The translations under genes and the position numbers were made by a program. From assembly GCA_013816585.1 (NCBI GenBank), contig JACDEE010000003.1, forward strand, positions 62,001-126,000: a stretch of DNA of 64,000 nucleotides. The letters are read 5' to 3'. This stretch comes from Sphingosinicella sp. GTDB taxonomy: Bacteria; Pseudomonadota; Alphaproteobacteria; Sphingomonadales; Sphingomonadaceae. The notes beneath the pieces were generated by a model, which ran no database searches, was not told the origin of the DNA, and saw only the letters and a list, made by a program, of their open reading frames with translations. Shown one piece after another: positions 33,206 through 48,680 of this stretch. Positions within the stretch are counted from its first letter, which is position 1. Every line of letters begins with the position of its first letter.

Positions 33206-33796
33206 ATGGCACGCCCGCAATCACCCGATTATGACAAGCGCCGCGAGGCTCTCGTGGCGACGGCGGCGCATCTGTTTGCCCGCCAGGGATTTCAGGGGGC
33301 GTCGGTGTCCGATCTTGCCCTGCAATGCGGAACCTCCAAATCGCTCATCTATCACTATTTCCCGTCGAAGGATGACATTCTCTACGAGGTCATGGCAGCC
33401 CATCTCGACGCCCTGGTCGACGCTGCCGACGATGTCATGCGGACGGGCGGCGCGCGGGAACGGCTCCATGCCCTGACCCTCGCCTTCATGCGGCTCTATG
33501 TCGGCGCGCAAGACAGCCAAAAAGTGCTGCTCAACGAACTGGACAATCTTCCCTCGCCTAGGCGAGTCGAAGTGGTCGCCAAGCAACGGCGCATCATCGC
33601 GGTGGTCGAGACTCTGGTGCTGGAGATACGGCCCGACGCCAACCCGCTGACCCTTCCGCTCACCATGCTGTTCTTCGGCATGATCAACTGGACCCACACC
33701 TGGTTCAGGCCGGACGGAGAAATTGATGCCGACGCCATGGCCGGCATAGCAGTCGACCTGATGCTGAACGGCCTGGAGCGGCTTCAGGCGTCGTAA
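33206..33796 (+). CDS. paaR: TetR-family regulator, PaaR-like
   Basis: 196 residues. N-terminal TetR helix-turn-helix: LVATAAHLFARQGFQGASVS, then LALQCGTSKSLIYHYFPSKD. The C-terminal domain has the TMLFFGMINWTHTWFRPDG motif typical of the PaaR group that senses phenylacetyl-CoA. It is convergent with paaE (33784) and overlaps it by 13 bases. The two GACCG-N2-CGGTC sites before paaA and paaG are candidate operators. It probably represses the phenylacetate genes in the absence of phenylacetyl-CoA; this is inference from position and family. Confidence 0.85.
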   Translation: MARPQSPDYDKRREALVATAAHLFARQGFQGASVSDLALQCGTSKSLIYHYFPSKDDILYEVMAAHLDALVDAADDVMRTGGARERLHALTLAFMRLYVGAQDSQKVLLNELDNLPSPRRVEVVAKQRRIIAVVETLVLEIRPDANPLTLPLTMLFFGMINWTHTWFRPDGEIDADAMAGIAVDLMLNGLERLQAS

Positions 33797-34860
33797 TCGA
33801 CCTCGACGCCCTCGCCTTTAGGTACCGACTGACAAGTGAGGACATAGCCCGACGCCACTTCCTCGTCGCTAAGGCCGTAGCGCGCCGCCATTTCGACGTC
33901 GCCCGACACTATGCGCGCGCGGCAGGTCGCACAGACGCCGGCCTTGCAGGCATAAGGCGCCGGAAGGCCGGAGGCGCGAGCGCTGTCCAGGATATTTCCC
34001 GCCGCCACATCGAACGCCACCCGCCGCGTGCGCCCGTCCAGGGTCACCATCATGGTCAGTCCTTCGGCATGCTTCTGCAAAGCGTGCATCTGCGCTTCCA
34101 CGGCGGCGGAAGGCCTGTCGGCCACAAAGCGCTCGATGAAGATCTTCGCTTCATCCACTCCGGCGGCGCGGAGCGAACCTTCCGCCGCGTCCATCATCGG
34201 CCCGGGGCCGCAGATGAAGGCCGCATCGATTCCGTGCACGTCGACAAGCATTTCCAGAATGAGGTCGCATTTCCCGCGGTCCAGAATACCGTTGAACAGG
34301 TCGATATCCTCTGCCTCTTCGGCAAGGAAATGGTGGACCTGCAGCCGGTTCATGAACCGGTTCTTCAGCCTCGCCAATTCTTCCAGAAAGATGACCGACG
34401 AGCTGTCGCGATTGCCGTAGAAGAGGGTGAAGCGGCTTTCGGGCTCGGTCATAAGCGCGGTCTTGAGCAACGAGATTATTGGAGTAATTCCCGACCCCCC
34501 GGCAAAGGCCACATAATGATGGCGCGCCTCGGCGGCGAACTCCCAGGTGAAAGATCCATGCGGCGGCATCACTTCGATTGCGTCGCCGGCCGCCAGATTG
34601 TCGTTGGCCCAATTAGAAAAGACACCGCCGGCAATCCGCTTCACGGTGACGATGATCTCGCCATCCTGAGGAGCGACGCAAAGCGAATAATTCCGGCGCA
34701 TATCCTCGCCATCAATGTCGGCTTTCAGTGTCAGATGCTGTCCAGGCTTGAAGGCGAACGCCTGTTTGAGTTCAGGCGGGAGCTCAAATCGGATCGATTT
34801 CGCCTCGCGCGTCTCATCTATGATTTCAGCGATGCGAAGGGTGTGGAAATTGACGCTCAT
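33784..34860 (-). CDS. paaE: Phenylacetyl-CoA epoxidase reductase subunit PaaE
   Basis: 358 residues from ATG 34860 with GAGGGG upstream; the open frame to 35130 overlaps paaD and is noise. The N-terminal half is a ferredoxin-NADP reductase fold with FAD motif RRNYSLCV and FCP-like GGSGITPIISLL; the C-terminal [2Fe-2S] domain has C-x4-C-x2-C...C in CKAGVCATCRA, with the last Cys in YVLTCQSVP. It passes electrons from NADPH to the PaaABC(D) complex that forms the ring 1,2-epoxide. Terminal gene of the paaABCDE operon. Confidence 0.95.
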   Translation of the reverse strand: MSVNFHTLRIAEIIDETREAKSIRFELPPELKQAFAFKPGQHLTLKADIDGEDMRRNYSLCVAPQDGEIIVTVKRIAGGVFSNWANDNLAAGDAIEVMPPHGSFTWEFAAEARHHYVAFAGGSGITPIISLLKTALMTEPESRFTLFYGNRDSSSVIFLEELARLKNRFMNRLQVHHFLAEEAEDIDLFNGILDRGKCDLILEMLVDVHGIDAAFICGPGPMMDAAEGSLRAAGVDEAKIFIERFVADRPSAAVEAQMHALQKHAEGLTMMVTLDGRTRRVAFDVAAGNILDSARASGLPAPYACKAGVCATCRARIVSGDVEMAARYGLSDEEVASGYVLTCQSVPKGEGVEVDYDA

Positions 34861-34867
34861 TCGCCCC

Positions 34868-35347
34868 TCAATGACATTTGAACAGGTCGAACGGCTCAAG
34901 GCAGTCGGTACATCGCCATTGCGCCTTGCAGGGCGTTGACCCGAACCGGCTGATTTCCTCGGTCCGAATCGATCCGCATTGGGGACAGCCGACCTCCCGG
35001 CTTCCCGCCGGCACCGGCGGTGCAATCCCATAGGCCAGTAATTTGGCTTTTCCTTCTTCGCTGATCCAGTCCGTGGTCCATGGCGGCGAAAGAATTGTCC
35101 TGATTTCAACCTCGCCGAAACCCGCTTCATCGAGGGCGGCGCGAACCATCTGTTCGATCACCAAAGTGGCCGGGCAGCCCGTATAGGTCGGCGTCAGCGT
35201 CACTTGGCGCGTGGTCACATCGCGCACGATCCCGAGATCGACGATCGAGACAGCGGGTATCTCCGGGTCAGGTACGGAAAATAGAGCGGACCAGATCGCC
35301 TGCTCACCCAAATGCTCCGCGCTGTGATGGGCCCTCGCGGCTACCAT
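34868..35347 (-). CDS. paaD: Phenylacetyl-CoA epoxidase assembly protein PaaD
   Basis: 159 residues. N-terminal DUF59/MIP18-like domain: IWSALFSVPDPEIPAVSIVD and TPTYTGCPATLVIEQMVRAA. C-terminal zinc-finger-like part with CPQCGS, then CKAQWRCTDCLEPF and CH at the end. PaaD is needed to mature the iron centres of the epoxidase. It overlaps paaC by 7 bases and is 7 bases from paaE, consistent with one operon. Confidence 0.95.
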   Translation of the reverse strand: MVAARAHHSAEHLGEQAIWSALFSVPDPEIPAVSIVDLGIVRDVTTRQVTLTPTYTGCPATLVIEQMVRAALDEAGFGEVEIRTILSPPWTTDWISEEGKAKLLAYGIAPPVPAGSREVGCPQCGSIRTEEISRFGSTPCKAQWRCTDCLEPFDLFKCH

Positions 35348-36186
35348 GTCGCATCCGGATAGGTGCGCTGCAGATATTGCATCGGCGCCAATATGTGGCC
35401 GAGATTTTCGCTATGGTGGCCCCGCCGGCCGCCGAGGATCGGCCGCTGGTCACTGGGCACTTCGAGCGTCGCCTGTTCGATCACTGCGCGAACCTTGCGA
35501 TCATATTCCTCGCGGAACGAGCCCACGTCGGCCCCGATTCCGCGCGATGTCATTTCGGCCGCTATTTCGTCCATCTCGAACAATTCCGGGATGAAGCGCC
35601 AGTTCCAGTCCAGCCCCTCCTTCATTCGCCGGCGGCTTTCGTCGGTTCCATCGCCCAGACGGATCACCCATTCTGCCGAAAGCTCCTCATGATAAGTGAC
35701 CTCCTTGACCGCCTTCGCGGCGATCGCGGCGATCATTTCGTCCGCCGATGCCGTCAACTGCCCAAACAGCAATTTCTGCCAGGTGGAAAACAGGAATTGC
35801 CGCGCCATGGTCTGCGCGAAATCGCCATTGGGCTGTTCGACCAGCCAGCAATTACGGAAATCCAGAACGTCGCGGCGAAATGCCAACGCGTCGCCATCGC
35901 GTCCCGCGCCTTCGACCTTGCTCGCATATTCGAGGAAATGAGTGGCCTGACCGATCAGGTCTAGCCCCATATTGGCGAGGCTCAAATCGACCTCGACGCT
36001 GGGGGCATGGCCGCAATATTCCGACAATCGCTGGCCGAGGATCAGGGAATCGTCGCCAAGCCGCAGCAAATAGTCGAACCGGACGCGGTCTTCCTCAGCG
36101 ACCGGCGGAGCGTCGAACGCGCCCGTATTCCCGCGAACCTTGGCAACAGCCTCGTCTTCGGGACGGATCGGGGGGAGCGAAGGCAT
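35341..36186 (-). CDS. paaC: Phenylacetyl-CoA epoxidase subunit PaaC
   Basis: 281 residues from ATG 36186, which overlaps the stop of the DUF3291 gene in TGATG; the ATG at 36204 would extend into it. It is the structural ferritin-like partner of PaaA: DYLLRLGDDSLILGQRLSEY, then ANMGLDLIGQATHFLEYASK, EVTYHEELSAEWVIRLGDGT and C-terminal RRGHHSENLGHILAPMQYLQ. PaaC binds PaaA but lacks a full active diiron site. PaaAC and PaaB form the epoxidase that converts phenylacetyl-CoA into the ring-1,2-epoxide. Confidence 0.95.
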   Translation of the reverse strand: MPSLPPIRPEDEAVAKVRGNTGAFDAPPVAEEDRVRFDYLLRLGDDSLILGQRLSEYCGHAPSVEVDLSLANMGLDLIGQATHFLEYASKVEGAGRDGDALAFRRDVLDFRNCWLVEQPNGDFAQTMARQFLFSTWQKLLFGQLTASADEMIAAIAAKAVKEVTYHEELSAEWVIRLGDGTDESRRRMKEGLDWNWRFIPELFEMDEIAAEMTSRGIGADVGSFREEYDRKVRAVIEQATLEVPSDQRPILGGRRGHHSENLGHILAPMQYLQRTYPDATW

Positions 36187-36692
36187 CAGGCGCGCCCGAC
36201 GCACCAGGGATCGGGCTGCATGTCGACCGGAGGTCCGGAAATCCCGGCGGCCGGATAACGAGCCTTGAAGGTGAAGGCGTGCGGGCTGGGGCCAAAGCGA
36301 TCAAGATACCAGAGGCGGGAAAGGCCGTCGTTGATCGTCGGTGTCGTTCCTTCCGGGATCCACCAAAGGGCTTGATAGGCACTCTGGAATGGCGTGAAAT
36401 ATTCGCGCCGCCGGGCCATTTCTGGCGTGTGCGCGCTGCGGTAGACGTAGGCGAACAGCGCGTCCGCGTCCGTCCAGACCGACATGTTGAGGATGAACAA
36501 AGGGTCCGGCGTGACCTGGATGGCGGTGGCATTGCCCGCATCATCCTTTAGCCGCCAGACGAACCCAGGGCTGGCATCAGCGAGCGCGTTGACGCGGTCC
36601 AGCGCGTCGAAGAACGGCTGCACCGCAGGGTCCCCCTTCGGCGCTGCGAGGCGCCCAACATTGATCTGCGCCAGATGCCAGTTTTCCGCCAT
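36186..36692 (-). CDS. DUF3291 domain protein inside the paa operon
   Basis: 168 residues spanning the full DUF3291 pattern: LAQINVGRLAAPKGDP, SPGFVWRLKDDAGNATAI, ILNMSVWTDADALFAYVYRS, then YFTPFQSAYQALWWIPEGTT and the FGPSPHAFTFKARYP ending. The fold is a ferredoxin-like monooxygenase relative; the function is unknown. It sits exactly between paaB (14 bases away) and paaC (one-base overlap), where the canonical operon has nothing, so it is translationally coupled to the epoxidase genes and may modify or protect the complex. Confidence 0.88.
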   Translation of the reverse strand: MAENWHLAQINVGRLAAPKGDPAVQPFFDALDRVNALADASPGFVWRLKDDAGNATAIQVTPDPLFILNMSVWTDADALFAYVYRSAHTPEMARRREYFTPFQSAYQALWWIPEGTTPTINDGLSRLWYLDRFGPSPHAFTFKARYPAAGISGPPVDMQPDPWCVGRA

Positions 36693-36706
36693 GAGCCTCC
36701 CTCTCC

Positions 36707-36991
36707 TTAGATGTGCGATATGCCGTCGGGAATATTGTAGAAGGTCGGGTGCCGGTAGATCTTATCTTCAGCCGGCTCGAACATCGGGCCATCTTCAGCC
36801 GGATCTGACGCGATGATCTGAGCCGAGGGCACCACCCAGAGGCTGACCCCTTCCATCCGGCGCGTATAGGTGTCGCGGGCATGGCGCACGGCAATTTCCG
36901 CGTCCGGCGCGTGGACGCTTCCGACATGACGGTGCGACAGCCCGCCCTTGGACCGGACGAAGACTTCCCAGAGCGGCCAATCTTTCGACAT
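36707..36991 (-). CDS. paaB: Phenylacetyl-CoA epoxidase subunit PaaB
   Basis: 94 residues. WPLWEVFVRSKGGLSHRHVG at the start and DKIYRHPTFYNIPDGISHI at the end match PaaB throughout. PaaB is the small subunit bridging PaaAC to the reductase PaaE. Its ATG overlaps the PaaA stop by one base (TGATG), the usual coupling for this operon. Confidence 0.95.
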   Translation of the reverse strand: MSKDWPLWEVFVRSKGGLSHRHVGSVHAPDAEIAVRHARDTYTRRMEGVSLWVVPSAQIIASDPAEDGPMFEPAEDKIYRHPTFYNIPDGISHI

Positions 36992-37974
36992 CAGGCCGCT
37001 TCCCTCTTCCGGATCTGCTTTTGGGCGTAGGCGTCGGCCGCTTCGCGGACCCAGGCATTCTGCTCCCAGGCGTCGCGGCGGGCCTTCATCCGTTCCTTGG
37101 CGACCGGGCCCTCGCCTTTTACCACCGCGTAAAATTCGTCCCAGTCGACCTCGCCGAAATCATGGCCGCCTTTTTCCTCATTCCAGCGAAGATCGGGATC
37201 GGGAACATTAAGGCCGATCGCGTCGGCCTGCGGTTTGGTGATGTCGACGAATTTCTGGCGAAGGTCGTCATTGGTGTCGCGCTTGATCCTCCAGCGCATC
37301 GATTGTTCGGTATTGGGCGAATTTTCATCGGGCGGTCCAAACATCATCAGCGACGGCCACCACCAGCGGTTAAGCGCATCCTGCGCCATTCTTTTCTGTT
37401 CGACGGTCCCGGCGGCAAGATGCATCATGATCTCATAGCCCTGACGCTGATGGAAACTTTCTTCCTTGCACACCCGCACCATGGCGCGGGCATAGGGTCC
37501 GTAGGATGTCCGCTGGAGGGGCACCTGATTCATGATCGCGGCTCCGTCGACCAGCCAGCCGATCGCACCGATATCCGCCCAGGTGAGCGTCGGATAATTG
37601 AAGATCGTGCTATATTTGGCTTTGCCCGAGTGCAGCGCCTCGATCATTTCTTGGCGAGATGTGCCGAGCGTCTCCGCCGCGGAGTAGAGATAGAGTCCGT
37701 GTCCCGCCTCGTCCTGCACTTTGGCCAGCAATATCGCCTTGCGCCGGAGCGAAGGCGCCCGCGAAATCCAATTACCCTCCGGCAACATGCCAACGATCTC
37801 GCTATGCGCGTGCTGGGAGATCTGGCGGGTCAGCGTGCGCCGATAGGCCTCCGGCATCCAGTCCTTGGGCTCGATGAACTCATCGGCCGCAACGCGCGCC
37901 TCGAACGCGGCGAGTTTGTCGGGATCCTCGGTGGAAGCGATCCTGGCCGTCTTCTGCAATTCGGCGGTATACAT
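36991..37974 (-). CDS. paaA: Phenylacetyl-CoA epoxidase catalytic subunit PaaA
   Basis: 327 residues. Ferritin-like diiron monooxygenase: both ExxH motifs are present, [20 protein letters not shown] and [20 protein letters not shown]. Other PaaA features: [20 protein letters not shown], then the [20 protein letters not shown] stretch. It epoxidises the ring of phenylacetyl-CoA. First gene of the paaABxCDE operon; a GACCGATCGGTC palindrome lies 36 bases before its start codon. Confidence 0.96.
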
Positions 37975-38009
37975 TTCGGGCTCCTGCGATCAGCCTTCTA
38001 CCATTAATC

Positions 38010-38021
38010 GACCGATCGGTC
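38010..38021. promoter_or_regulatory. Palindromic operator before paaA (PaaR-box candidate)
   Basis: GACCGATCGGTC is a perfect 12-bp palindrome 36-47 bases upstream of the paaA start codon. Both arms also occur in the site before paaG (GACCG-N2-CGGTC), so a common regulator, most likely the PaaR-like protein of this cluster, is inferred. Confidence 0.7.
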
Positions 38022-38120
38022 AACGAACTAGCCGATCGTCGTCAAGTCAACGCGTGTTACCCCGCAGAGTCGCATTTCATGCGATAGATAAGGAACCGCG
38101 AATGAAGGTCGTGACGGTTA

Positions 38121-39323
38121 TCAAACCCGCTCGATCACCGTTGCAATGCCCTGCCCAACGCCGATGCACATGGTGCACAGGGCATATCGGCCGCCTGCTC
38201 GGTGAAGCTCTTCGGTAGCGGTGAGGATCAGGCGGGCGCCGGACATTCCAAGCGGATGGCCGAGCGCGATGGCGCCGCCGTTCGGATTGACATGGGGCGC
38301 ATCGTCCGGGATTCCGAGCTGACGCATCACGGCCAGACCCTGCGCGGCGAAGGCCTCGTTCAATTCGATGACATGCATGTCGGCGATCGTGAGGCCAAGA
38401 CGCTTGAGTAGTTTCTCCGAGGCGGGAGCCGGACCGATCCCCATGATGCGGGGCTCCACCCCGGCGACAGCGCCCCCGAGGATCCGTGCGCGGGGCACAA
38501 GCCCAAAGCGCTTGGCAGCCTCTTCGGTCGCCACGATCATGGCGGCCGCACCGTCATTCACGCCTGAAGCATTGCCCGCCGTCACGCTGCCGTCGGGCCG
38601 GACGATGGGCCGCAATTTGGCCAACGCCTCGACGCTGGTCTGGCGCGGATGTTCGTCGCGGTCGACCATGATCGGTTCGCCCTTGCGCTGCGGAATCCCG
38701 ACCGGGACGATCTCTGCAGCAAACCGACCATTTTCCTGCGCACGCGACGCCTTTTCCTGGCTGCGGACCGCGAACAGGTCCTGATCTTCGCGGCTTACCT
38801 GAAACTCCTGCGCCACATTTTCGGCGGTCGAGGGCATGGTGTCGTCGCCATAGGCGCCCTTCATTTTGGGATTGACGAAGCGCCAGCCGATCGTGGTGTC
38901 ATAGATTTCGGCATTGCGGTCGAAGGCGCTGGTGGCCTTGGCCATCACGAACGGAGCCCGGCTCATGCTTTCGGACCCGCCAGCAATGATGAGATCCGCC
39001 TCGCTGCCGCGGATCACACGCGCCGCCATCAGCACCGCGTCCATCCCCGATCCGCAGAGCCGATTGAGGGTCACCCCGCCCGATTGGTGCGGCAGGCCGG
39101 CCAGGAGCCCGGCCATGCGGGCGAGGTTGCGATTATCCTCGCCTGCCTGGTTGGCGCAGCCGAGGATAACATCGTCTACCGCCTGCCAATCCACTCCTGG
39201 ATTACGGTCGATCAGCGCCTTGATCGGAATCGCGGCCAGATCGTCGGCCCGGACAGGGGCAAGCGCTCCGCCATAGCGGCCGATCGGAGTGCGCACCGCG
39301 TCGCAGATAAAGGCGTCAGTCAT
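38121..39323 (-). CDS. pcaF: 3-oxoadipyl-CoA thiolase
   Basis: 400 residues. Thiolase active sites: LNRLCGSGMDAVLMAARVIR holds the acyl Cys, GGAIALGHPLGMSGAR the catalytic His, and CTMCIGVGQG the second Cys. Length and the LIIAGGSESMSRAPF block fit the PcaF/PaaJ subgroup that cleaves 3-oxoadipyl-CoA to acetyl-CoA and succinyl-CoA, the last step of both phenylacetate and beta-ketoadipate pathways. It overlaps paaI by 8 bases and reads toward paaA, 146 bases away. Confidence 0.93.
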   Translation of the reverse strand: MTDAFICDAVRTPIGRYGGALAPVRADDLAAIPIKALIDRNPGVDWQAVDDVILGCANQAGEDNRNLARMAGLLAGLPHQSGGVTLNRLCGSGMDAVLMAARVIRGSEADLIIAGGSESMSRAPFVMAKATSAFDRNAEIYDTTIGWRFVNPKMKGAYGDDTMPSTAENVAQEFQVSREDQDLFAVRSQEKASRAQENGRFAAEIVPVGIPQRKGEPIMVDRDEHPRQTSVEALAKLRPIVRPDGSVTAGNASGVNDGAAAMIVATEEAAKRFGLVPRARILGGAVAGVEPRIMGIGPAPASEKLLKRLGLTIADMHVIELNEAFAAQGLAVMRQLGIPDDAPHVNPNGGAIALGHPLGMSGARLILTATEELHRAGGRYALCTMCIGVGQGIATVIERV

Positions 39324-39768
39324 TTATGTCCTCTTTGATTAGGCCACTTTCGATCACCGGGCCCCCGAGGCTACGCGAATAACCCTGAAATTCGGCAATG
39401 GCACGCCCTGCTTCGCCGCGCACCGAGACGGCATAGACTCCGGCACGCCCCGCCACCGCTTGCTCCCTGGCCTCGGCGATCAACGTCTCACCTTCCCTCG
39501 CCGCATCCAGAAAGACGATCGAGGCCTGCGCAGCCACATTCTTCACGTTGCGGCTGTTGCAGGCATAAGCGAAGGCGGTGTCGGCCAGCGCGAACAGCAT
39601 CCCACCATGGGCGATGCCGTGCCCATTGAGCATGTCGGACCGCAAGACCATGCGAATACGCGCATAGCCTTCGCCAGCCTCCTCAATCTCGACGCCCCAA
39701 AAAGGGCCGGTGCCTTCGCGGGCGAGCATCGTCGATGCCACTTGCCGCGCCGTTTCGTCAGCGCCCAT
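39316..39768 (-). CDS. paaI: Hydroxyphenylacetyl-CoA thioesterase PaaI
   Basis: 150 residues, hotdog fold. MLNGHGIAHGGMLFALADTA carries the catalytic pattern with HGG and Asp of the family; the remaining strands (NVAAQASIVFLDAAREG, VYAVSVRGEAGRAIAE) fit. PaaI hydrolyses dead-end CoA esters that block the pathway. It heads the paaI-pcaF pair and is divergent from paaG across 45 bases that contain a PaaR-box candidate. Confidence 0.93.
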   Translation of the reverse strand: MGADETARQVASTMLAREGTGPFWGVEIEEAGEGYARIRMVLRSDMLNGHGIAHGGMLFALADTAFAYACNSRNVKNVAAQASIVFLDAAREGETLIAEAREQAVAGRAGVYAVSVRGEAGRAIAEFQGYSRSLGGPVIESGLIKEDIND

Positions 39769-39787
39769 GATGCTCCTTCAGTTTCCC

Positions 39788-39799
39788 GACCGAGCGGTC
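39788..39799. promoter_or_regulatory. GACCG-N2-CGGTC site between paaI and paaG
   Basis: GACCGAGCGGTC has the same arms as the site before paaA with a centre of AG. It lies 14 bases before the paaG ATG and 19 bases from the paaI ATG, so a bound repressor would cover both divergent promoters or starts. Confidence 0.7.
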
Positions 39800-39813
39800 T
39801 ATCAGGTGCGGCC

Positions 39814-40593
39814 ATGGCGTATGAGACTATAGACTTCAAGCTGCAGGAGGGCATTGCCCGCCTCATTCTCAACCGGCCCGATCGGCTCAACAGCTTCACC
39901 GCGCAAATGCATGAGGAAGTCGCCGACGCCCTGTCCCGACTGGACGAGGCCCGCGTGCTGGTGCTGACCGGAGCGGGCCGCGGTTTTTGTGCCGGCCAGG
40001 ATCTGAACGACCGCGCCGTGGCGCCCGGCGAAAGCGTGGATCTCGGCCATTCGGTGGAAAGCTATTATAATCCGCTGATCCGAAAGCTCAACGGCCTGCC
40101 GATGCCGGTCATCGCCCGGGTCAACGGCGTTGCCGCCGGAGCGGGCGCGAATATTGCTTTGGCCTGCGACATCGTCATCGCGTCCAAATCGGCCAAGTTT
40201 ATCCAATCTTTCGCCAATATCGGACTGATTCCGGACAGCGGCGGTACCTGGGTGCTACCGCGGCTGGTCGGACAGGCGCGGGCGCTTGGGCTGGCGCTGA
40301 CTGCCGAGCTGCTGCCCGCCGAGAAAGCTGCCGAATGGGGCCTGATCTGGAAGGCGGTTGATGACGAGGCGCTCGATGTGGAAGTGGACGCGCTCGCTGC
40401 CCGGTTTGCCGCCGCCCCGACACGAGGGCTTGCCGCGATCAAACGGATGATCCGGGAGAGCTGGGGTCACGATCTGGAGCAGGAGCTGGAACTGCAGCGC
40501 GACATGATGCGCGAGCTCGGGATGAGCAAAGATTATAAGGAAGGCGTCGCCGCCTTCATGGAAAAACGAACGCCGAAATTCACGGGAAATTGA
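39814..40593 (+). CDS. paaG: 2-(1,2-epoxy-1,2-dihydrophenyl)acetyl-CoA isomerase PaaG
   Basis: 259 residues from ATG 39814 (AGGTG upstream); a frame extension to 39460 overlaps paaI. Crotonase fold: IARLILNRPDRLNSFTAQMH, then ALSRLDEARVLVLTGAGRGF and CAGQDLNDRA, with the oxyanion NGVAAGAGANIALACDIVIA, and DSGGTWVLPRLVGQARALGL. PaaG isomerises the ring epoxide to the oxepin. It is coupled to paaZ, whose ATG follows the stop by 1 base. Confidence 0.95.
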   Translation: MAYETIDFKLQEGIARLILNRPDRLNSFTAQMHEEVADALSRLDEARVLVLTGAGRGFCAGQDLNDRAVAPGESVDLGHSVESYYNPLIRKLNGLPMPVIARVNGVAAGAGANIALACDIVIASKSAKFIQSFANIGLIPDSGGTWVLPRLVGQARALGLALTAELLPAEKAAEWGLIWKAVDDEALDVEVDALAARFAAAPTRGLAAIKRMIRESWGHDLEQELELQRDMMRELGMSKDYKEGVAAFMEKRTPKFTGN

Positions 40594-40594
40594 A

Positions 40595-42613
40595 ATGAAG
40601 ACCATTAGCCTCCTGAACTTTGCTCGTGACGAATGGTTCGGTGCCTCCGGCGGTCTCGCCGAGGTGCATAGCGCCGTCACCGGTGAGCTTGTCGCCACCA
40701 CAGGCAGTGACGGGTTGGATTTCAAGGCGATGCTGGACCATGCCCGTACAGTCGGTGGCCCGGCCCTGCGAGCGATGACTTTCCACGAACGCGCCTGGAT
40801 GCTGAAGGACCTCGCCAACGCCATCATGGCGCGCAAGGAAGAGTTGTACGAATTGAATTATGCCACCGGCGCGACGCGGAATGATGGCTGGATCGATATC
40901 GAAGGTGGTGCCGGAACGCTCTTTTCTTTCTCCTCCAAGGGCCGGCGCGAACTTCCCAACCAGCGCTTGCTGATCGATGGTCAGATGGAGCCTCTGTCCA
41001 AGGGCGGCACCTTCGTCGGCCAGCATGTCTGGACCTCGCTTCAGGGAGTAGCGGTCCATATCAACGCCTTCAATTTCCCGGTCTGGGGAATGCTGGAGAA
41101 ACTGGGCCCGACCTTGCTCGCCGGCGTTCCCGCGATCGTCAAACCTGCTTCTTCGACCGGCTATCTTGCCGAACATTGCGTGCGGATCATGATAGAGGCG
41201 AATATTCTACCGGCCGGAGCGCTGCAGTTGATCATGGGATCCACCGGCGACCTGCTCGACCATCTGACGTTGCAGGACGTAGTCTCTTTCACCGGCTCTG
41301 CGCAGACCGCGATGAAACTGCAATCGCACCCGGTCATGACCCGGGAATCGGTGCGCTTCATTGCCGAGCGGGACAGTCTCAACGCATCGATCCTTGGGCC
41401 AGATGCCGCGCCCGGAACGCCTGAATTCGATCTGTTCATCAAGGAAGTCGTTCGCGAGATGACGGTCAAAGCGGGGCAGAAATGTACCGCTATCCGCCGC
41501 GCCATGGCGCCCGCCGAGCATATGGACGCCGTGGAGCAAGCCATGAAGGAGCGGCTTTCCAAAGTGCGGATCGGCGACCCGCGCGAAGAAGGCGTCAATA
41601 TGGGCGCGCTTGCGAGTCAAGCACAGCTCAAGGCCGTGCGCGACAGCGTCGCCGAGCTGTCAAAATCCGCGCGCATTGTCTCGGGCGATCCCAATATTTC
41701 CCCGGTTGCCGGCAACGGCGCCTTCATGTCCCCGATCCTGCTTCGATCCGACGATCCCTGGGGTTCGCCCGAAATTCACGATGTCGAAGCGTTCGGGCCG
41801 GTTTCGACTATCATGCCCTATCGCGACCTCGCCGATGCCGTGGCGCTCGCCAATCGGGGCATGGGTTCGCTGGCGCTATCGCTCTTCACCTTCGATCCAA
41901 AGGTCGCGGAAGAATTCGTTCTGGGCGCGGGCGCCTATCATGGCCGCATGATGATCGTCGACCGAACCAGCGCCAAGGAATCGACGGGTCACGGCTCTCC
42001 CCTTCCCGTCCTGGTCCATGGCGGTCCGGGCCGCGCAGGTGGCGGCGAAGAGATGGGCGGCATACGCGGCGTCACCCATTATATGCAGCGCACCGCGCTT
42101 CAGGGCAGTCCCGCTTTGCTATCAAGCATCGTCAAGCAATGGCTGCCCGGTGCGGCTAAGCCGGAAAGCGAAATCCACCCGTTCCGCAAGCGCATTTCGG
42201 AACTGGAGGTCGGTTATACGCTCCGCACCGCCAGCCGCGTCGTGACGCTGGAAGATATCGAGCATTTCGCCCATTTCACTGGCGATAATTTCTACGCCCA
42301 CATGGACGAGGAGGCGGCCAAGGCTAACCCGATCTTCGATGGCCGGGTTGCGCACGGATATCTGATCCTGAGCTTTGCCGCCGGATTGTTCGTCGATCCG
42401 GCGCCGGGACCAGTGATCGCCAATACGGGCCTCGAAAATCTTCGCTTCCAGACGCCGCTCTACCCCGGCGACAGCATGCGGGTGGAGCTAACCGTCAAGT
42501 CGAAGAGCGTCCGCGACGAGGAAAAAGGTGAGGTCCGCTGGGCGGTTTATGTTTTCAACCAGAAGGACGAGGTGGTTGCGACCTATGACCTTTTGACGAT
42601 GAACCGGCCTTAG
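40595..42613 (+). CDS. paaZ: Bifunctional oxepin-CoA hydrolase / aldehyde dehydrogenase PaaZ
   Basis: 672 residues. The N-terminal ALDH (about 1-520) has the active-site Glu in SVRFIAERDSLNASILG and Cys in AGQKCTAIRRAMAP; the C-terminal MaoC-like hotdog domain (about 540-672) has FTGDNFYAHMDEEAA and GRVAHGYLILS. PaaZ opens the oxepin ring and oxidises the resulting aldehyde, giving 3-oxo-5,6-dehydrosuberyl-CoA. It converges with the 2-oxoacid dehydrogenase E2 gene, only 5 bases away. Confidence 0.96.
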   Translation: MKTISLLNFARDEWFGASGGLAEVHSAVTGELVATTGSDGLDFKAMLDHARTVGGPALRAMTFHERAWMLKDLANAIMARKEELYELNYATGATRNDGWIDIEGGAGTLFSFSSKGRRELPNQRLLIDGQMEPLSKGGTFVGQHVWTSLQGVAVHINAFNFPVWGMLEKLGPTLLAGVPAIVKPASSTGYLAEHCVRIMIEANILPAGALQLIMGSTGDLLDHLTLQDVVSFTGSAQTAMKLQSHPVMTRESVRFIAERDSLNASILGPDAAPGTPEFDLFIKEVVREMTVKAGQKCTAIRRAMAPAEHMDAVEQAMKERLSKVRIGDPREEGVNMGALASQAQLKAVRDSVAELSKSARIVSGDPNISPVAGNGAFMSPILLRSDDPWGSPEIHDVEAFGPVSTIMPYRDLADAVALANRGMGSLALSLFTFDPKVAEEFVLGAGAYHGRMMIVDRTSAKESTGHGSPLPVLVHGGPGRAGGGEEMGGIRGVTHYMQRTALQGSPALLSSIVKQWLPGAAKPESEIHPFRKRISELEVGYTLRTASRVVTLEDIEHFAHFTGDNFYAHMDEEAAKANPIFDGRVAHGYLILSFAAGLFVDPAPGPVIANTGLENLRFQTPLYPGDSMRVELTVKSKSVRDEEKGEVRWAVYVFNQKDEVVATYDLLTMNRP

Positions 42614-42618
42614 ACCGC

Positions 42619-43836
42619 TTAGTCCGGCGGCCAGCCTTCGATCACCTCGACGAAGCGGCTGAGCCAGCCATTGGTCTGGTGGCCGTCCACGACCCTGTGG
42701 TCGATGGTGAGCGACACATAGGCCATTGGCCGGACCTGTATCGCGTCCACGCCGCCCACTTCGCGCACCACGACGCGCTTCTCCAGCTTGCCGACGCCCA
42801 GGATCGCCGATTGCGGCTGGTTTATGATGATCGGCGTCGCAAAGAGCGAGCCCGACACACCATGGTTGGAAATCGTAAAGGTACCGCCAGAGACATCCGA
42901 TCCGGTCAATTTTTCCGCGCGAGCCTTTTCAACCAAGACATCGAGGCCAGCCGCAATCTGCTTCAGCGAAAGCGTCTGCACCTGACGAAGCACGGGGACG
43001 ATCAGGCCCTTTTCTCCAAGCGCCGTGCCCACCCCGATATTGACGTCGCCGAAAATCTCCAGCCGGTCCTCATGCCAGCGGCTGTTGATGGCCGGCGCCA
43101 CCTTCATCGCCTCGGCACAGGCGGCAACAATATAGGCGGTGTAGGTAAGCTTGGCCTTGTCGTTGGCGAACGCATCCTTGTGGCGGGCGCGATGGGCCAT
43201 GATCGCGCTGAAATCGCATTCGAACATCGCCGTCACATGCGGCGCCTGCTGGACGGAGTTCAGCATATGCTCGGCGATCTTCAGCCGCATTCGGTCGTGC
43301 GGAATGCTGTGTGAAGTCAGGGCGCCGGCAGGACGCGGTATCACGCCTTCGACCGGCTGAACCCGGGCCCCATCGTTTGCCGCATTGTCGACATCGGCGC
43401 GCGTGATACGGCCATCGCGCCCGGTGCCCTGGATCAAGCCAGGAGCGATATCATGCTGGAGCAAGGCACGCCTTACCGCGGGCGACAGCCGAAGCTCGGG
43501 ATCGCGAAGAACGTCGCGGTCGATCGACACGGGCGCTTCGGCGGGAGACGCATCCGCGGCCGGAGCCGGCGTAGAAATCGTCCCTTCATTGTCCGGCGCT
43601 TCCCCCATCGGCGCAATGCGTCCAAGCACTGCTCCCGGAAGTGCCTCGGCATCTTTATGCAGGACGATCTCGCGCAATATGCCGGCCGCAGGCGCCGGAA
43701 CTTCGACCGCCACCTTGTCGGTTTCCAGTTCGACCAGAGGGTCGTTGAGTTCGACCCGGTCGCCGACCTGCTTCAGCCAGGCGCGGACCACGGCCTGCGT
43801 GCCTTCCTGCTCGATCGGTGCAATAATATCGATCAT
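42619..43836 (-). CDS. 2-oxoacid dehydrogenase E2 (dihydrolipoyl acyltransferase)
   Basis: 405 residues from ATG 43836, which overlaps the E1 stop by one base; the longer frame is noise. N-terminal lipoyl domain with Lys in ELETDKVAVEV, a Pro/Ala linker, a peripheral-subunit-binding domain (LSPAVRRALLQHDIAPGLI) and a C-terminal acyltransferase ending in the DHRVVDGHQTNGW active-site motif. It takes the acyl group from E1 to CoA. Substrate assignment is discussed under the E1 gene. Confidence 0.93.
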   Translation of the reverse strand: MIDIIAPIEQEGTQAVVRAWLKQVGDRVELNDPLVELETDKVAVEVPAPAAGILREIVLHKDAEALPGAVLGRIAPMGEAPDNEGTISTPAPAADASPAEAPVSIDRDVLRDPELRLSPAVRRALLQHDIAPGLIQGTGRDGRITRADVDNAANDGARVQPVEGVIPRPAGALTSHSIPHDRMRLKIAEHMLNSVQQAPHVTAMFECDFSAIMAHRARHKDAFANDKAKLTYTAYIVAACAEAMKVAPAINSRWHEDRLEIFGDVNIGVGTALGEKGLIVPVLRQVQTLSLKQIAAGLDVLVEKARAEKLTGSDVSGGTFTISNHGVSGSLFATPIIINQPQSAILGVGKLEKRVVVREVGGVDAIQVRPMAYVSLTIDHRVVDGHQTNGWLSRFVEVIEGWPPD

Positions 43837-45920
43837 CAGAATCCCACCAACTGGTCGATCTTGGCCCTGATCCGTTCCACCGAGGGCACGGCCCAATCGA
43901 GCAGGACCGGATTATGCGGGCTTGGAATGTCGGGCATGGTAAGCCGTGACACGGGCGCGTCCAGGTCGAGGAAAGCTTCGTCGGCCACCACCGCTGCGAT
44001 TTCGGCGCCGAAGCCGCCCGTCAGCAGATCTTCGTGGACGATCAGGCATCGCCGGGTCCGGCGAACCGATTCCAGCACCATTTCCCGATCCCACGGCAAC
44101 AGCGTCCGAAGGTCGATCACATCGGCCGAAAAATCCTTGGCCGCCTCCTCGCAGCGGGGGACCATCGCTCCCCAGGTGACGATGCTGATATCGCTGCCCT
44201 GGCGCGTCTTCTTTGCCCGCCCGAACGGCAGGACATATTCGTCGCCCGGATAAGGCCGGCGCGCCCAGGCATCGTCCAGCATGGCCCGATGTTCGAAGAA
44301 CACCACGGGATCGTTGCCACGTAGCCCGGCGCGAAGAAGCCCCACGGCATCCTCGGCATTGGAAGGCACCGCCACCTTCCAGCCCGGATTATGGACGAAC
44401 TGAACTTCGTTGGTCTGGCTGTGCCAGGGATCCCCGCATTTGAAGAAACCCCCGGGAATGCGAAGCACCATCGGCGCCGCGAACCGGTTGTTGGTCCGCC
44501 AGCGCATCGTGCCGCAATCGTTGATCTGCTCCAGCGCCGGCTCGGCATATTTGCGGAACTGGATTTCGGGCACCGGCATCAGCCCCGCCATCGCCATCCC
44601 GACCGCGCGGCCGATTATGCCCTCTTCCGAAAGGCTGGTGTCGAATACCCGTTCGATCCCGAACTTATCCTGAAGACCAAGCGTCACCGCATGGACGCCG
44701 CCCTTGGGGCCGATATCCTCGCCGAACAGCAGCACCCGGGGATTGATTTCCAGCTCGTGATCGAGCGTGCGGCGGATCGCCGTCACCATGTTGATGCGTT
44801 GACCCTCGGGCCGGGGCGTGTCATCCGAAGGCGGTGCCTCATATCCGTGCGACCATTGGCCGCCGAGCAGCTGCATTTCGCCTTCGTAAAAGACGTTGTT
44901 CATCACCGTCGCCGGATCGGCAACGCCGCGTGCCTCGGCGGCTTCGCGCGCTTTCTCCACCTCGGCCTCGGCCTCCGCCTCGATCCCCGCCCATTCCTGC
45001 TCGTTCAGAACCGAGCCCAGCAGATAGGATTTAAGCTTCGGAAGCGGATCTCGTGCCCATTCGGACGCGACGAAATCCTCGGATTTGTAGGTCTGCGTAT
45101 CCTGATAACTGTGGCCCTGCAGTCTCGGCACGCTGAGCCTCAACAATGCCGGACCCTTGCGCCCGCGCACATGGGCGATGGCCCTGCTCATCAGACTGGC
45201 GGCTTCGGCCGGTTCGGTCCCGTCGCCGGAAAAGATTTCGAGACCCGTAAAGCTGCCAAGGTTACGGGCAATGTCGCCGCCGGGCGTCTGGTAGGTGGAG
45301 GGCACGGAAATCCCGTATTGATTGTCCTCGATGTAGAACAGCATCGGCAATTTCTGCGTGGTCGCGATCGTCAGCGCGGACCAGAACCCGTTGGTCGCGA
45401 CCGAGGCATCGCCCCCCAGAACGACGGCCATGGCATTTTCATAAGCCGGGTCGTTGAGCACGCCGCGATAATATTCGATCGCCTGCGCCCAGCCGGCGGT
45501 CGGCGTATATTGGGCTCCTACCCCGCCCGACATCGGCAAGGCCGGGGCGCCTTTCGGATTAGGATAATTGAACACGACGCCGATGTCGCGTCCGTCGGAG
45601 TAACCGCCGGCCCGGCCCATTCCCGAACTCAGCGCGTCTTCGAGCGGCACCCCCAAGGCGACCAGCAAGGGCCGCGACCGATAATAGCCGCAAGCCGCAT
45701 CCTTGGCCCCGTCCAGCTTCTGGCCCAGCATCACCTGCGCCATGTCGTGGCCGCGCGCCGAAAATTGGTACAGCACCTTCTTTTCTGGGACGAGCCGCTC
45801 TTCCTCCAGCCGGTCCATAGCCCGGCTGACAAGCATATCTCGCGCAACCTTATGCCAGTCGAAGCTAGGATCGGGCGAATTGGTCTTCGTCCGTTCCTGC
45901 GTCAGCAGGTCGTCAGCCAT
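43836..45920 (-). CDS. Fused alpha-beta E1 of branched-chain-type 2-oxoacid dehydrogenase
   Basis: 694 residues from ATG 45920; the frame extending to 46118 overlaps the aminotransferase. The alpha half (about 20-340) has the thiamine diphosphate motif GGDASVATNGFWSALTIAT followed by EDNQYGISVP; the beta half (about 360-694) is a transketolase-like pyrimidine domain (LLFGEDIGPKGGVH, SLSEEGIIGRAVGMAMAGL). Family members oxidatively decarboxylate branched-chain 2-oxoacids. No E3 is encoded here. Coupling to an aromatic aminotransferase upstream, next to the paa cluster, suggests phenylpyruvate as a substrate (inference). Confidence 0.9.
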   Translation of the reverse strand: MADDLLTQERTKTNSPDPSFDWHKVARDMLVSRAMDRLEEERLVPEKKVLYQFSARGHDMAQVMLGQKLDGAKDAACGYYRSRPLLVALGVPLEDALSSGMGRAGGYSDGRDIGVVFNYPNPKGAPALPMSGGVGAQYTPTAGWAQAIEYYRGVLNDPAYENAMAVVLGGDASVATNGFWSALTIATTQKLPMLFYIEDNQYGISVPSTYQTPGGDIARNLGSFTGLEIFSGDGTEPAEAASLMSRAIAHVRGRKGPALLRLSVPRLQGHSYQDTQTYKSEDFVASEWARDPLPKLKSYLLGSVLNEQEWAGIEAEAEAEVEKAREAAEARGVADPATVMNNVFYEGEMQLLGGQWSHGYEAPPSDDTPRPEGQRINMVTAIRRTLDHELEINPRVLLFGEDIGPKGGVHAVTLGLQDKFGIERVFDTSLSEEGIIGRAVGMAMAGLMPVPEIQFRKYAEPALEQINDCGTMRWRTNNRFAAPMVLRIPGGFFKCGDPWHSQTNEVQFVHNPGWKVAVPSNAEDAVGLLRAGLRGNDPVVFFEHRAMLDDAWARRPYPGDEYVLPFGRAKKTRQGSDISIVTWGAMVPRCEEAAKDFSADVIDLRTLLPWDREMVLESVRRTRRCLIVHEDLLTGGFGAEIAAVVADEAFLDLDAPVSRLTMPDIPSPHNPVLLDWAVPSVERIRAKIDQLVGF

Positions 45921-47109
45921 CCATCTTCTCCACGACAGCGGCGGCAAAGCGGCCGACATTTTCGTCGGACAAGCCCACCACGTTGAACCGGCCGCTTCCG
46001 GCCATGTAGATGCCATGGCTGGCGCGAAGGTCGAGCACCGCCTGGGGCGACAATGGCAACATGGAAAACATGCCGTTCTGGCCTTCGATATAGGCGAGGC
46101 GCTCGTCATAGCCGGCAAGGCGCGCGCGCAAGTTCCTGATGCGGGCGCACATCTCGGTCACTTCAGCGTTCCAGTCGGCTCGAAGCTCCGCATCGTCCAG
46201 GATGATGCGCACGACGGCGGCGCCATGGTCGGGCGGCATCGACCACATGGTCCGCGCCCGCGATTGCAGATGCCCAAGGATGATCTCGGCGGTGCGCCGG
46301 TTGCTTCCCTTGACGAACAAGGATCCCGTCCGTTCGCGATAGATGCCGAAATTCTTGTCGCAACTCTGCGCGACCAGGGCCTGGTCGGCAGCCTCGACCA
46401 CAAGCCGCGTTCCGGCCGCATCCGCTTCGAACCCGTTGCCCAGCCCTTGATAGGCAAGGTCGACGAACGGGATGATCCCCCGCTTTGCGACGGCATCCGC
46501 GATTGCCCGCCACTGATCGGGATTCAAGTCGGCGCCCGTGGGGTTATGGCAGCATCCGTGCAGCAGGATCAGGTCGCCGCTACGTGCCTTGCCAATCGCG
46601 CCCATCATTTCATCGAACAGGATCGTGCGGCTCTTCGCGTCATAATAAGGATGGCCGACCATCTCGACGCCGGCACATTCGATCAAAGGTCCGTGATTGG
46701 GCCAGGTAGGCTGGCCAACAAGAACGCGGGCCTGACGATCCGCCGCCTCGATCAGCTCCGCACCCAGCCGGAGCGCGCCGCAGCCTCCCGGAGTCTGGAT
46801 TCCGACGATGCGGTCGTCGGCGGCGCCCGCTTCACCGAAGACGATCGGCTTGATCAACTCGATGAAGCGAATGTCACCCTGGGACCCAAGATAGGCTTTG
46901 GTCTGCTGCGTTTCGATCAGGATGGCTTCGGCCTTCTTGACCGCGCGCGGGATCGGGGTGCCGCCCGTCGCGTCCCGATATACGCCAACCCCGACATCGA
47001 TTTTTTCCGGCCGGGGATCGGCATTGGCGAGCGCGATAAGCTGAAGAAGGGAATCCGAAGGCTGCTCGTCCAGCCGGTCGAACAATTTCACTGCGCTCGC
47101 CTCGGCCAT
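45913..47109 (-). CDS. Aromatic amino acid aminotransferase (class I)
   Basis: 398 residues of the aspartate/tyrosine aminotransferase I-alpha fold. The PLP lysine is in SCDKNFGIYRERTG, the substrate-carboxylate Arg in GIYMAGSGRFNVVGL, and LLHGCCHNPTGADLNPDQWR is the family cofactor segment. The family converts Phe, Tyr (and Asp/Glu) to 2-oxoacids. It overlaps the E1 gene by 8 bases and is divergent from an Lrp-type regulator. With E1/E2 and paa it could form a Phe degradation route. Confidence 0.9.
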   Translation of the reverse strand: MAEASAVKLFDRLDEQPSDSLLQLIALANADPRPEKIDVGVGVYRDATGGTPIPRAVKKAEAILIETQQTKAYLGSQGDIRFIELIKPIVFGEAGAADDRIVGIQTPGGCGALRLGAELIEAADRQARVLVGQPTWPNHGPLIECAGVEMVGHPYYDAKSRTILFDEMMGAIGKARSGDLILLHGCCHNPTGADLNPDQWRAIADAVAKRGIIPFVDLAYQGLGNGFEADAAGTRLVVEAADQALVAQSCDKNFGIYRERTGSLFVKGSNRRTAEIILGHLQSRARTMWSMPPDHGAAVVRIILDDAELRADWNAEVTEMCARIRNLRARLAGYDERLAYIEGQNGMFSMLPLSPQAVLDLRASHGIYMAGSGRFNVVGLSDENVGRFAAAVVEKMDG

Positions 47110-47197: not shown

Positions 47198-47698
47198 ATG
47201 AGACAATTTTTCAGTTATGATCGACAGATGAAAGAAATTGGTCAAATCGACGGCATAGACCGGCGAATCGTCCGCGAATTGCAGCGTGACGCAAGCATCA
47301 GTCATGCGACGTTGGGGGAGAAGGTAGGTGCTTCGGCCGCCTCCACCTGGCGACGTGTCCGTAATCTCGAGAAAATGGGTGTCATCGGTAAGGTCATCCG
47401 CCTTGCCGACCCGAAATTCCTCGATCGCTCGGTCAATGTCCTGTGCCAGGTACGAATGGCGCGGCAGACAATTTCCGCCCGCACGGAGTTTGAGGAATTC
47501 ATCCAGTCGCGCGAAGAAATCGTCGAATGCTACGCCATGTCGGGCGAATGGGATTACCTGCTGCGAATCGCCGTTCGGGACGTTGCCGATTATGACCGGT
47601 TCATCATGCGGGGCGTGCTGGCGCACCCGTCCGTCGCCAATGCGGCGTCCAATTTTGCGCTTCGCCAGGTCAAATATACCACCGAAATCCCGGTTTGA
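47198..47698 (+). CDS. Lrp/AsnC-family regulator
   Basis: 166 residues from ATG 47198, or 156 from ATG 47228; neither has a clear ribosome site. Helix-turn-helix: IDGIDRRIVRELQRDASISH, then LGEKVGASAASTWRRVRNLE, and a RAM domain with CYAMSGEWDYLLRIAVRDVA. It is divergent from the aminotransferase-E1-E2 operon with about 90-120 bases between. The arrangement is the classical one for autoregulation and control of an amino-acid degradation operon, with Phe or a related amino acid as a plausible effector. Confidence 0.88.
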   Translation: MRQFFSYDRQMKEIGQIDGIDRRIVRELQRDASISHATLGEKVGASAASTWRRVRNLEKMGVIGKVIRLADPKFLDRSVNVLCQVRMARQTISARTEFEEFIQSREEIVECYAMSGEWDYLLRIAVRDVADYDRFIMRGVLAHPSVANAASNFALRQVKYTTEIPV

Positions 47699-47778: not shown

Positions 47779-48663
47779 ATGGCGGCACGGCCCTATTGGA
47801 AGGGACAGATCAGATTGGCTTTGGTTTCCATCCCGGTGGAAATCTATTCGGCGACCAAGAGCGGTGCGACCATCGCCTTCAATCAGATCCACGAACCCAG
47901 CGGCAAACGCGTCAAATATGAAAAGGTCGTGCCCGGCATCGGGCCGGTCGATCCCGATGAGATCGTCAAAGGCTTTCAATATGAAAAAGGCAGCTATGTG
48001 CTGCTGGACGATGAAGAGCTGGAGGCGGTCAAGCTGGAAAGCAAGAAGACGCTGGAGCTGACTCAATTCGTCGATTCCAACGAGATCGACCCGCTTTATT
48101 ATGAAAAGCCTTATTATGTCGTCCCGGCCGACGACCTCGCCGAAGAAGCCTTCGTGGTGCTTCGCGAAGCGCTCCGCGACACGAAGAAAGTGGGCCTCGG
48201 CCAGCTCGCCATGCGGGGCCGTGAATATATCGTCAGCTTGAAACCCTGCGGTCGCGGCATTTTGATGGAAACGCTTCGCTATGCCGACGAGGTCAACAAG
48301 GCCCAGGGATATTTCCGCGATATTCCCGACCTGAAACCGGATGCCGAATTGCTCGATCTGGCGGAAACATTGATCGAGAAAAAGACCGCCAAATTCGATC
48401 CCAACAAATTCCATGATCGCTATATCGACGCGCTTCACGAGCTGATCGAACGCAAGCGCAAGGGCAAGACTATCACCGCCGACGAAGAACCCGCGCCCAA
48501 CCGCGGCTCCAACGTAGTGGACCTGATGGCGGCGCTGAAGAAATCGATCGATCGTCCGGGCGAGCAGACCGGCAAGGCGGGTTCGGCGAGAAAGCCCGCC
48601 GCGAAAAAGGCACCGCCCAAGAAAGCCCCTGTCAAGGCGGTTCCGGCGCGGAAGCGGGCCTGA
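47779..48663 (+). CDS. ku: Non-homologous end joining protein Ku
   Basis: 294 residues. The Ku core is complete: RPYWKGQIRLALVSIPVEIY at the start, HEPSGKRVKYEKVVPGIGPV, YYEKPYYVVPADDLAEEAFV and LGQLAMRGREYIVSLKPCGR, ending around KFHDRYIDALHELIERKRKG. A lysine/alanine-rich C-terminal tail of about 45 residues probably binds DNA or LigD. Ribosome site GGAGA about 10 bases before ATG 47779. It is followed 17 bases later by ligD, so the two form an end-joining operon. Confidence 0.97.
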   Translation: MAARPYWKGQIRLALVSIPVEIYSATKSGATIAFNQIHEPSGKRVKYEKVVPGIGPVDPDEIVKGFQYEKGSYVLLDDEELEAVKLESKKTLELTQFVDSNEIDPLYYEKPYYVVPADDLAEEAFVVLREALRDTKKVGLGQLAMRGREYIVSLKPCGRGILMETLRYADEVNKAQGYFRDIPDLKPDAELLDLAETLIEKKTAKFDPNKFHDRYIDALHELIERKRKGKTITADEEPAPNRGSNVVDLMAALKKSIDRPGEQTGKAGSARKPAAKKAPPKKAPVKAVPARKRA

Positions 48664-48680
48664 ACATGGCGGCCCGTTAA

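Follow-up and report, generated by a model that had tools for sequence, protein, structure and literature searches.

How does phenylacetyl-CoA reach the phenylacetate (Paa) pathway of a bacterium that keeps the PaaABCDE epoxidase genes but no recognisable phenylacetate-CoA ligase (PaaK)? The question is raised by a stretch of 64,000 nucleotides from Sphingosinicella sp. (contig JACDEE010000003.1 of assembly GCA_013816585.1, positions 62,001 to 126,000, the whole of which is called here the window), where a paa cluster adjoins an operon encoding an aminotransferase (AT), a fused 2-oxoacid dehydrogenase dependent on thiamine diphosphate (ThDP) (E1) and an acyltransferase (E2). We consider it very probable that this AT-E1-E2 operon encodes a phenylpyruvate dehydrogenase system supplying phenylacetyl-CoA to PaaABCDE, because of the distribution of the fused E1 among genomes, because of its gene neighbourhoods and because no other recognised feeder of the pathway was found. 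A preliminary description of the locus had already suggested this connection between phenylalanine and the Paa pathway, an interpretation that is supported by the analysis described below.

In the proposed mechanism, the aminotransferase would convert phenylalanine into phenylpyruvate, which the ThDP-dependent fused E1 would decarboxylate, loading the lipoyl arm of the E2 with the phenylacetyl group. This second component would move the phenylacetyl group to CoA, whereas an E3 coded elsewhere would restore the lipoate with NAD. The phenylacetyl-CoA so produced would be taken by PaaABCDE, and PaaG, PaaZ, PcaF and a FadB-like enzyme would finish the pathway. Such a route would spend no ATP, would use no ligase and would bypass free phenylacetate. 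Each of these steps follows from the protein families involved, but the substrate does not, and the substrate, product, flux, regulation and E3 of the system are inferred.

The genome of the window (G000; 2.82 Mb in 62 contigs, rated 99.99% complete) offers few other candidates for this entry step. The lack of paaK in the window, already reported in the preliminary description, was confirmed among the open reading frames (ORFs) scanned at 27-51 kb. A paaK elsewhere in the genome had been named as the finding that would speak against the proposal, and the best genome-wide match to the PaaK model (TIGR02155) reaches 28 bits for a cut-off of 646, as a partial match in a fatty acyl-AMP ligase. Nine AMP-binding ORFs are present in the genome, none of them in the paa cluster and all resembling ligases other than PaaK: fatty-acid-type and related acyl-CoA ligases, an acetate-CoA ligase, an exosortase-associated ligase, a methylthiopropionyl-CoA-ligase-like protein, the fatty acyl-AMP ligase and a benzoate-CoA-ligase-like protein (L008). 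A full-length IorA-like protein was not found in the genome either, which gave only partial matches of at most 25 bits. No recognisable feeder of PaaABCDE other than the E1-E2 pair was found in this genome, and therefore the organism is predicted to use phenylalanine, and not external phenylacetate, through the Paa pathway. As for the later steps, paaF and paaH are indeed missing from the cluster, as previously stated, but a genome-wide 3HCDH search (with no separate search for PaaF-type hydratases) gave one ORF, a FadB/FadJ-like hydratase-dehydrogenase fusion that could cover both the PaaF and the PaaH steps. The genome also encodes a separate branched-chain E1-alpha/E1-beta/E2 set on contig C40, a pyruvate dehydrogenase E1 on C47 and a 2-oxoglutarate dehydrogenase E1 on C45, the latter named by eye. 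Near the branched-chain genes of C40 there is a transketolase-like ORF of 772 aa (L070, 15518-17833).

The distribution of the fused E1 was followed in three sets of genomes. In a sample of 396 genomes from the same order, where paaA was counted over its cut-off and the fused E1 at E <= 1e-100, E1 occurs in 41 genomes and paaA in 77, and all 41 E1 carriers have paaA (Fisher p 1e-34 by genome). Any paaA match would raise the paaA genomes to 83, but the six below cut-off were dropped from the E1 and PaaK counts. The association holds by genus, with E1 in 12 of 84 genera, all within the 27-30 genera containing paaA (Fisher p 1.5e-7 to 8e-7). In a class-wide sample of 337 genomes, 40 have paaA and four have E1, the four of them together with paaA, including the three E1 carriers from outside the order of the window. 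A third set was obtained with a profile of 12 E1 sequences, which gave 80 named loci, the best among at least 580 relatives. Once 35 loci regarded as those of sphingomonads (31 from their title or genus, and L079, L081, L082 and L092, which have wider or other titles, from their E1 and neighbourhood) were set aside, as was L107 by oversight, genome-wide searches found paaA in 41 of the 44 remaining carriers, often at a distance from E1. The three sets overlap in part, since at least two of the named carriers, L117 and L141, have genomes shared with the class sample (identical paaA places) and several named sphingomonad loci lie on contigs of the order sample. Altogether, an E1 that follows Paa across genomes (41/41, 4/4 and 41/44) argues strongly in favour of the suggested passage from phenylalanine to phenylacetyl-CoA.

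A similar picture emerges from the gene neighbourhoods. The E2 gene comes directly after E1 in 77 of the 80 named loci, two of the three exceptions being at a contig end, and a core paa gene lies within 10 kb of E1 in 43 of the 80, or in 30 of the 54 loci where both 10-kb flanks are present. The arrangements differ among lineages. A co-directional order paaABCE-AT-E1-E2 is found in genus g13, whose 27 genomes in the order sample all have E1 and paaA (both stretches read, L061 and L062), and in the Sphingomicrobium loci L106 and L116, whereas Sphingorhabdus soli shows paaABCDE-E1-E2 (L150, on the same contig as L063), L100 shows E1-E2-paaABCDE and L064 shows E1-E2-paaG-paaZ. An Lrp match is present in 41 of the 80 loci, and in L120, L153 and L154 it is a PaaR-like regulator, not an Lrp, that diverges from E1. 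Such a repeated but differently arranged linkage between E1 and paa genes is hard to explain by inheritance of a single gene order alone.

The presence in the window of paaABCDE, paaI, pcaF, paaG, paaZ and a PaaR-like regulator, as first described, was borne out: PaaA, B, C, D, E, G, I, Z and PcaF all score above their NCBIfam cut-offs, among them the canonical catabolon genes PaaABCDE, PaaG and PaaZ, and the regulator carries TetR domains. The features of the locus are the following:

33206..33796, + strand: TetR-family regulator, PaaR-like (TetR_N and TetR_C_24; named from its context, adjoining paaE and with GACCGNNCGGTC boxes; no NCBIfam cut-off met)
33784..34860, - strand: paaE, phenylacetyl-CoA epoxidase reductase (TIGR02160, 420.9 bits, cut-off 420.8, a margin of 0.1 bit)
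34868..35347, - strand: paaD (TIGR02159, 172 bits, cut-off 108)
35341..36204, - strand: paaC, start uncertain (TIGR02158, 285 bits, cut-off 133; match from residue 49)
36186..36692, - strand: gene for a DUF3291 protein within the paa operon (PF11695, 177 bits)
36707..36991, - strand: paaB (TIGR02157, 136 bits, cut-off 85)
36991..37974, - strand: paaA (TIGR02156, 521 bits, cut-off 280)
38010..38021, no strand: predicted PaaR-like operator GACCGATCGGTC, upstream of paaA
38121..39323, - strand: pcaF/paaJ thiolase (TIGR02430, 693 bits, cut-off 597)
39316..39768, - strand: paaI thioesterase (TIGR02286, 137 bits, cut-off 119)
39788..39799, no strand: predicted PaaR-like operator GACCGAGCGGTC, between paaI and paaG
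39814..40593, + strand: paaG isomerase (TIGR02280, 397 bits, cut-off 345)
40595..42613, + strand: paaZ, bifunctional aldehyde dehydrogenase and MaoC-like hydratase (TIGR02278, 1002 bits, cut-off 563; both domains)
42619..43836, - strand: E2 with lipoyl, E3-binding and acyltransferase domains (PF00364, PF02817, PF00198)
43836..45920, - strand: fused E1-alpha/E1-beta ThDP-dependent 2-oxoacid dehydrogenase, proposed phenylpyruvate dehydrogenase from distribution and neighbourhood (PF00676, PF02779, PF02780)
45913..47109, - strand: aminotransferase for aromatic amino acids, leading the AT-E1-E2 operon (PRK09257, 477 bits, cut-off 377)
47198..47698, + strand: Lrp/AsnC regulator, divergent from AT-E1-E2 (PF01037, PF13404)

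Two details of the earlier account had to be changed. The operon and its divergent Lrp gene stand as described, but the fusion does not involve the aminotransferase: it is E1-alpha and E1-beta that form one protein of 694 aa (Pfam E1_dh, Transket_pyr and Transketolase_C), whereas the aminotransferase is a separate gene overlapping E1 by 8 bases, in a transcription order AT-E1-E2 with overlapping ends. Moreover, the five bases that paaZ was said to share with its neighbour are actually a gap of 5 bp separating two convergent genes, with the end of paaZ at 42613 and the stop of E2 at 42619, and therefore paaZ and E1-E2 belong to different transcripts in this genome. All the listed E1 and E2 domains are over their Pfam gathering scores, and the E2 stays below the curated cut-off of each NCBIfam model it matched. 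The best solved relative of the aminotransferase is the aromatic aminotransferase 1ay4, with aspartate aminotransferases close behind.

With regard to regulation, the palindrome GACCGNNCGGTC occurs at 38010, upstream of paaA, and at 39788, in the paaI-paaG interval, and it is also found 5' of paaA in several relatives. The window contains three of these PaaR-like boxes, compared with 0.57 in shuffles that keep the single-base content, the third one (54102) being unrelated. A PaaR-like box was searched for upstream of the E1 operon of the window and not found, and this operon is more likely under the Lrp-type regulator than under PaaR-like control, as judged from the sequence. In Sphingomonas jejuensis (L060/L114) the E1 match is preceded by a PaaR-like box at a distance of about 50 nt, which lends weak support to the proposed phenylpyruvate dehydrogenase system.

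Three other explanations have to be weighed against a phenylpyruvate dehydrogenase. The fused E1-E2 could be a paralogous branched-chain 2-oxoacid dehydrogenase that lies near paa by chance. Its E1-beta half is nearer to the branched-chain E1-beta of the genome (42% identity) than to its pyruvate dehydrogenase E1-beta (35%), and branched-chain operons of other bacteria are also among the targets of Lrp-type regulators. Like the Bkd complex, the system combines E1-alpha and E1-beta with an E2 carrying lipoyl and E3-binding domains, for the same chemistry, although its E1 is fused, with identities of about 42% and 26% to the branched-chain E1-beta and E1-alpha of the genome, and is tied to paa genes. 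This branched-chain alternative, which the preliminary description had already contemplated, is weakened because the genome keeps the separate branched-chain set mentioned above, whose E1-beta reaches 567 bits with the solved 2-oxoisovalerate dehydrogenase (2bp7/1qs0) against 227 bits for the fused E1. Moreover, a branched-chain enzyme would have no reason to be confined to genomes with paaA (41/41 and 41/44) or to be placed inside paa operons, and we regard it as improbable. An argument drawn from the pocket was also tried, based on Ser-Pro in a 2-oxoacid dehydrogenase that we take to be that of Thermus, at positions presumably lining the substrate pocket, against Gly131-Gly132 of the fused E1, invariant in 95 of 95 sequences. 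It was dropped, as the branched-chain E1-alpha of the same genome has Gly-Asn at these positions.

Decidedly improbable in our opinion is a complex acting mainly on another aromatic 2-oxoacid, such as 4-hydroxyphenylpyruvate or indolepyruvate, with an indirect link to Paa. Aromatic aminotransferases accept tyrosine and tryptophan too, and no feature of the sequence fixes the substrate, but PaaABCDE acts on phenylacetyl-CoA and the E1 tracks paaA with few exceptions. In the window genome, an AMP-forming ligase other than PaaK could also activate phenylacetate, in which case E1-E2 would not be the entry to Paa there. The benzoate-CoA-ligase-like ORF, with 344 bits for a cut-off of 375, is the one to consider among the nine. 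None of these ORFs lies in the cluster, however, nor does the PaaK model find a good match, and such a ligase would leave the tracking of paaA by E1 unexplained, so we deem it very improbable indeed, even if both entries could coexist.

Several observations weigh against a phenylpyruvate dehydrogenase as the feeder of Paa. In 37 of the 80 named loci, including those of Pseudomonas and many Rhizobiales, there is no core paa gene in the available flanks, and an adjacent co-directional aminotransferase is present in only 28 of the 80, nearly all sphingomonads. These loci are the best 80 among at least 580 relatives, and the association covers these closer ones. Even within them, paaA was not found in three of the 44 carriers: a metagenome-assembled genome (MAG; L098), a Sinorhizobium MAG (L133) and Methylobacterium sp. 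Leaf123 (L111). E1-E2 and paaZ of the window are convergent, no PaaR-like box accompanies E1-E2 there, and the box of S. jejuensis concerns one lineage and does not go far beyond chance, with 58 boxes in 1.90 Mb and about 0.1-0.2 expected there by chance. The fused E1 and the branched-chain E1 of the genome were not told apart by the active-site alignment, the invariant Gly131 being Gly in both, and for relatives the lack of PaaK was judged from the four best candidates per genome. The fused E1 of Leaf123, at 76% identity, has no adjoining E2 match.

If a phenylpyruvate dehydrogenase feeds Paa, its relationship with PaaK has to be considered. The preliminary description considered a ligase unnecessary for phenylalanine, which agrees with the lack of PaaK in the window genome but does not make the module a simple substitute for PaaK. 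In the order sample, where at most four best candidates were scored per genome, 33 of the 41 E1 carriers lack PaaK, seven have it and one is unclear (G033, with a contig-end PaaK fragment of 124 bits beside paaA, counted as lacking PaaK in the statistics). Counted by genome, PaaK accompanies E1 in 7 of 41 cases, compared with 28 of the 36 genomes that have paaA but no E1 (p 8e-8), four matches under the cut-off (551-638 bits) being taken as present. Two genera, g1 and g13, supply 30 of the 33 PaaK-less carriers, and therefore the genus counts do not prove exclusion: by genus majority, PaaK is present against absent in 5:6 of the E1 genera and 10:6 of the others (p 0.45). Together with the presence of PaaK in 36 of the 44 carriers with non-sphingomonad titles (E <= 1e-80; 31 over the cut-off), this led us to reject a simple replacement of PaaK, which is claimed for particular lineages only. 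Since most of those carriers keep PaaK, E1-E2 and PaaK seem to be separate doors, for phenylalanine and for phenylacetate respectively, and some sphingomonads have kept only the former. The ligase-free entry of phenylalanine is best read as the only recognisable one in several sphingomonads and as usually accompanied by PaaK elsewhere.

Eight genomes of the order have paaA and neither E1 nor PaaK. G104 and G113 are 69% and 62% complete, and G009, G014, G034 and G038 show a long match to Ior (indolepyruvate oxidoreductase; 121-155 bits), although no Ior match reaches the curated cut-off of 651. For G179 no other explanation was found. G024 carries a divergent paaA set between ORFs resembling nonribosomal peptide synthetases, named by eye (L073, G024:C9), possibly a cluster for a natural product derived from phenylacetyl-CoA. 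The Ior scan covered the six more complete genomes of this group and also 15 of the 41 E1 carriers, 11 of these carriers being without a long match and four with it (G003, G007, G010 and G262). Long matches also appeared in the three scanned genomes that bear PaaK and no E1 (G015, G027 and G046); such matches are therefore widespread in the order and do not single out the genomes that need them, making a weak case for Ior as a third door to Paa.

On a broader scale, the fused E1 and its E2 are likely to form a separate and widespread class of complex, a catabolic phenylpyruvate dehydrogenase that would accompany PaaABCDE almost obligatorily in Alphaproteobacteria and in some Gammaproteobacteria (Pseudomonas). 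In several sphingomonad genera it would be the sole recognisable entrance, and there the Paa pathway would serve phenylalanine and not phenylacetate and would have been missed by surveys starting from PaaK. The chemistry has a proposed precedent in PglB/PglC of Streptomyces pristinaespiralis, from the phenylglycine branch of pristinamycin biosynthesis, which like the E1 of the window have been proposed to convert phenylpyruvate into phenylacetyl-CoA. In the relevant passages, these proteins are described as pyruvate-dehydrogenase-like, with phenylacetyl-CoA as a suggested intermediate (PMC7089894), and are named phenylpyruvate dehydrogenase (PMC10685826). They differ, however, in that alpha and beta are encoded separately in an antibiotic operon, and the pgl genes listed include no E2 (PMC7089894), whereas the window system has a fused E1, its own E2 and a proposed catabolic role. 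In this regard, the principle of the bypass is already known from Ior1 of Phaeobacter, reported to convert phenylpyruvate directly into phenylacetyl-CoA without PaaK (PMC5577590; the bypass also in PMC7497051). This indolepyruvate oxidoreductase belongs to another enzyme family than the fused E1, and the window genome gives no long Ior-like match; the novelty would be the enzyme and the breadth of its tracking of Paa. Compared with the canonical paaABCDEFGHIJK catabolon, the window shares PaaABCDE, G, I, Z and the thiolase but lacks PaaK, and PaaF and PaaH are not in the cluster.

In our searches of the open-licence PMC literature we recognised no description of this E1-E2 as a catabolic phenylpyruvate dehydrogenase of Proteobacteria. 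The main text of the GapMind catabolism paper does not contain 'phenylpyruv' (PMC9007349), and a 2026 survey of Paa pathways, according to its selection step, starts from PaaK (PMC13186573), so that PaaK-less pathways such as the one in the window would escape it. The public annotations examined name these genes 'pyruvate dehydrogenase', 'transketolase C-terminal domain-containing protein' or 'dihydrolipoamide succinyltransferase', and one large plasmid of Sinorhizobium meliloti is annotated with an Lrp, a 'pyruvate dehydrogenase' and a 'dihydrolipoamide succinyltransferase' in this order. Matches near 26 kb in several records, together with the position near the start of pSymB that we assume for SMb20020, suggest that this is the fused E1 gene of S. 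meliloti. In the gene list of a 2025 paper, SMb20020 appears as 'pdh, 2-oxoglutarate dehydrogenase E1 component' (PMC12542648). If the proposal is true, genes annotated under other names would receive a specific and testable function, in an unrecognised step of aerobic phenylalanine breakdown to phenylacetyl-CoA, dependent on lipoate and NAD and free of ATP.

Some neighbouring genes deserve a brief mention. The DUF3291 gene sits between paaB and paaC, and its sole relative (E <= 1e-3) among the 159 fetched loci is found between paaA and paaB in a Marinicaulis MAG (L157, 1924-2328); its product is possibly an accessory of the epoxidase operon. On the other side of the cluster, the TetR gene adjoins a gene for a class A beta-lactamase-like protein (31869-33152, +; 427 aa, 199.1 bits for a cut-off of 200). 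A ZnuD-like TonB receptor gene (27080-29188) is followed by a gene for a DUF5117 and DUF4953 (met-zincin) protein (29286-31736, +). After the Lrp gene come Ku and LigD genes (47779-51173, +), which are also found beside E1 in L050, L080-L082, L084 and L146.

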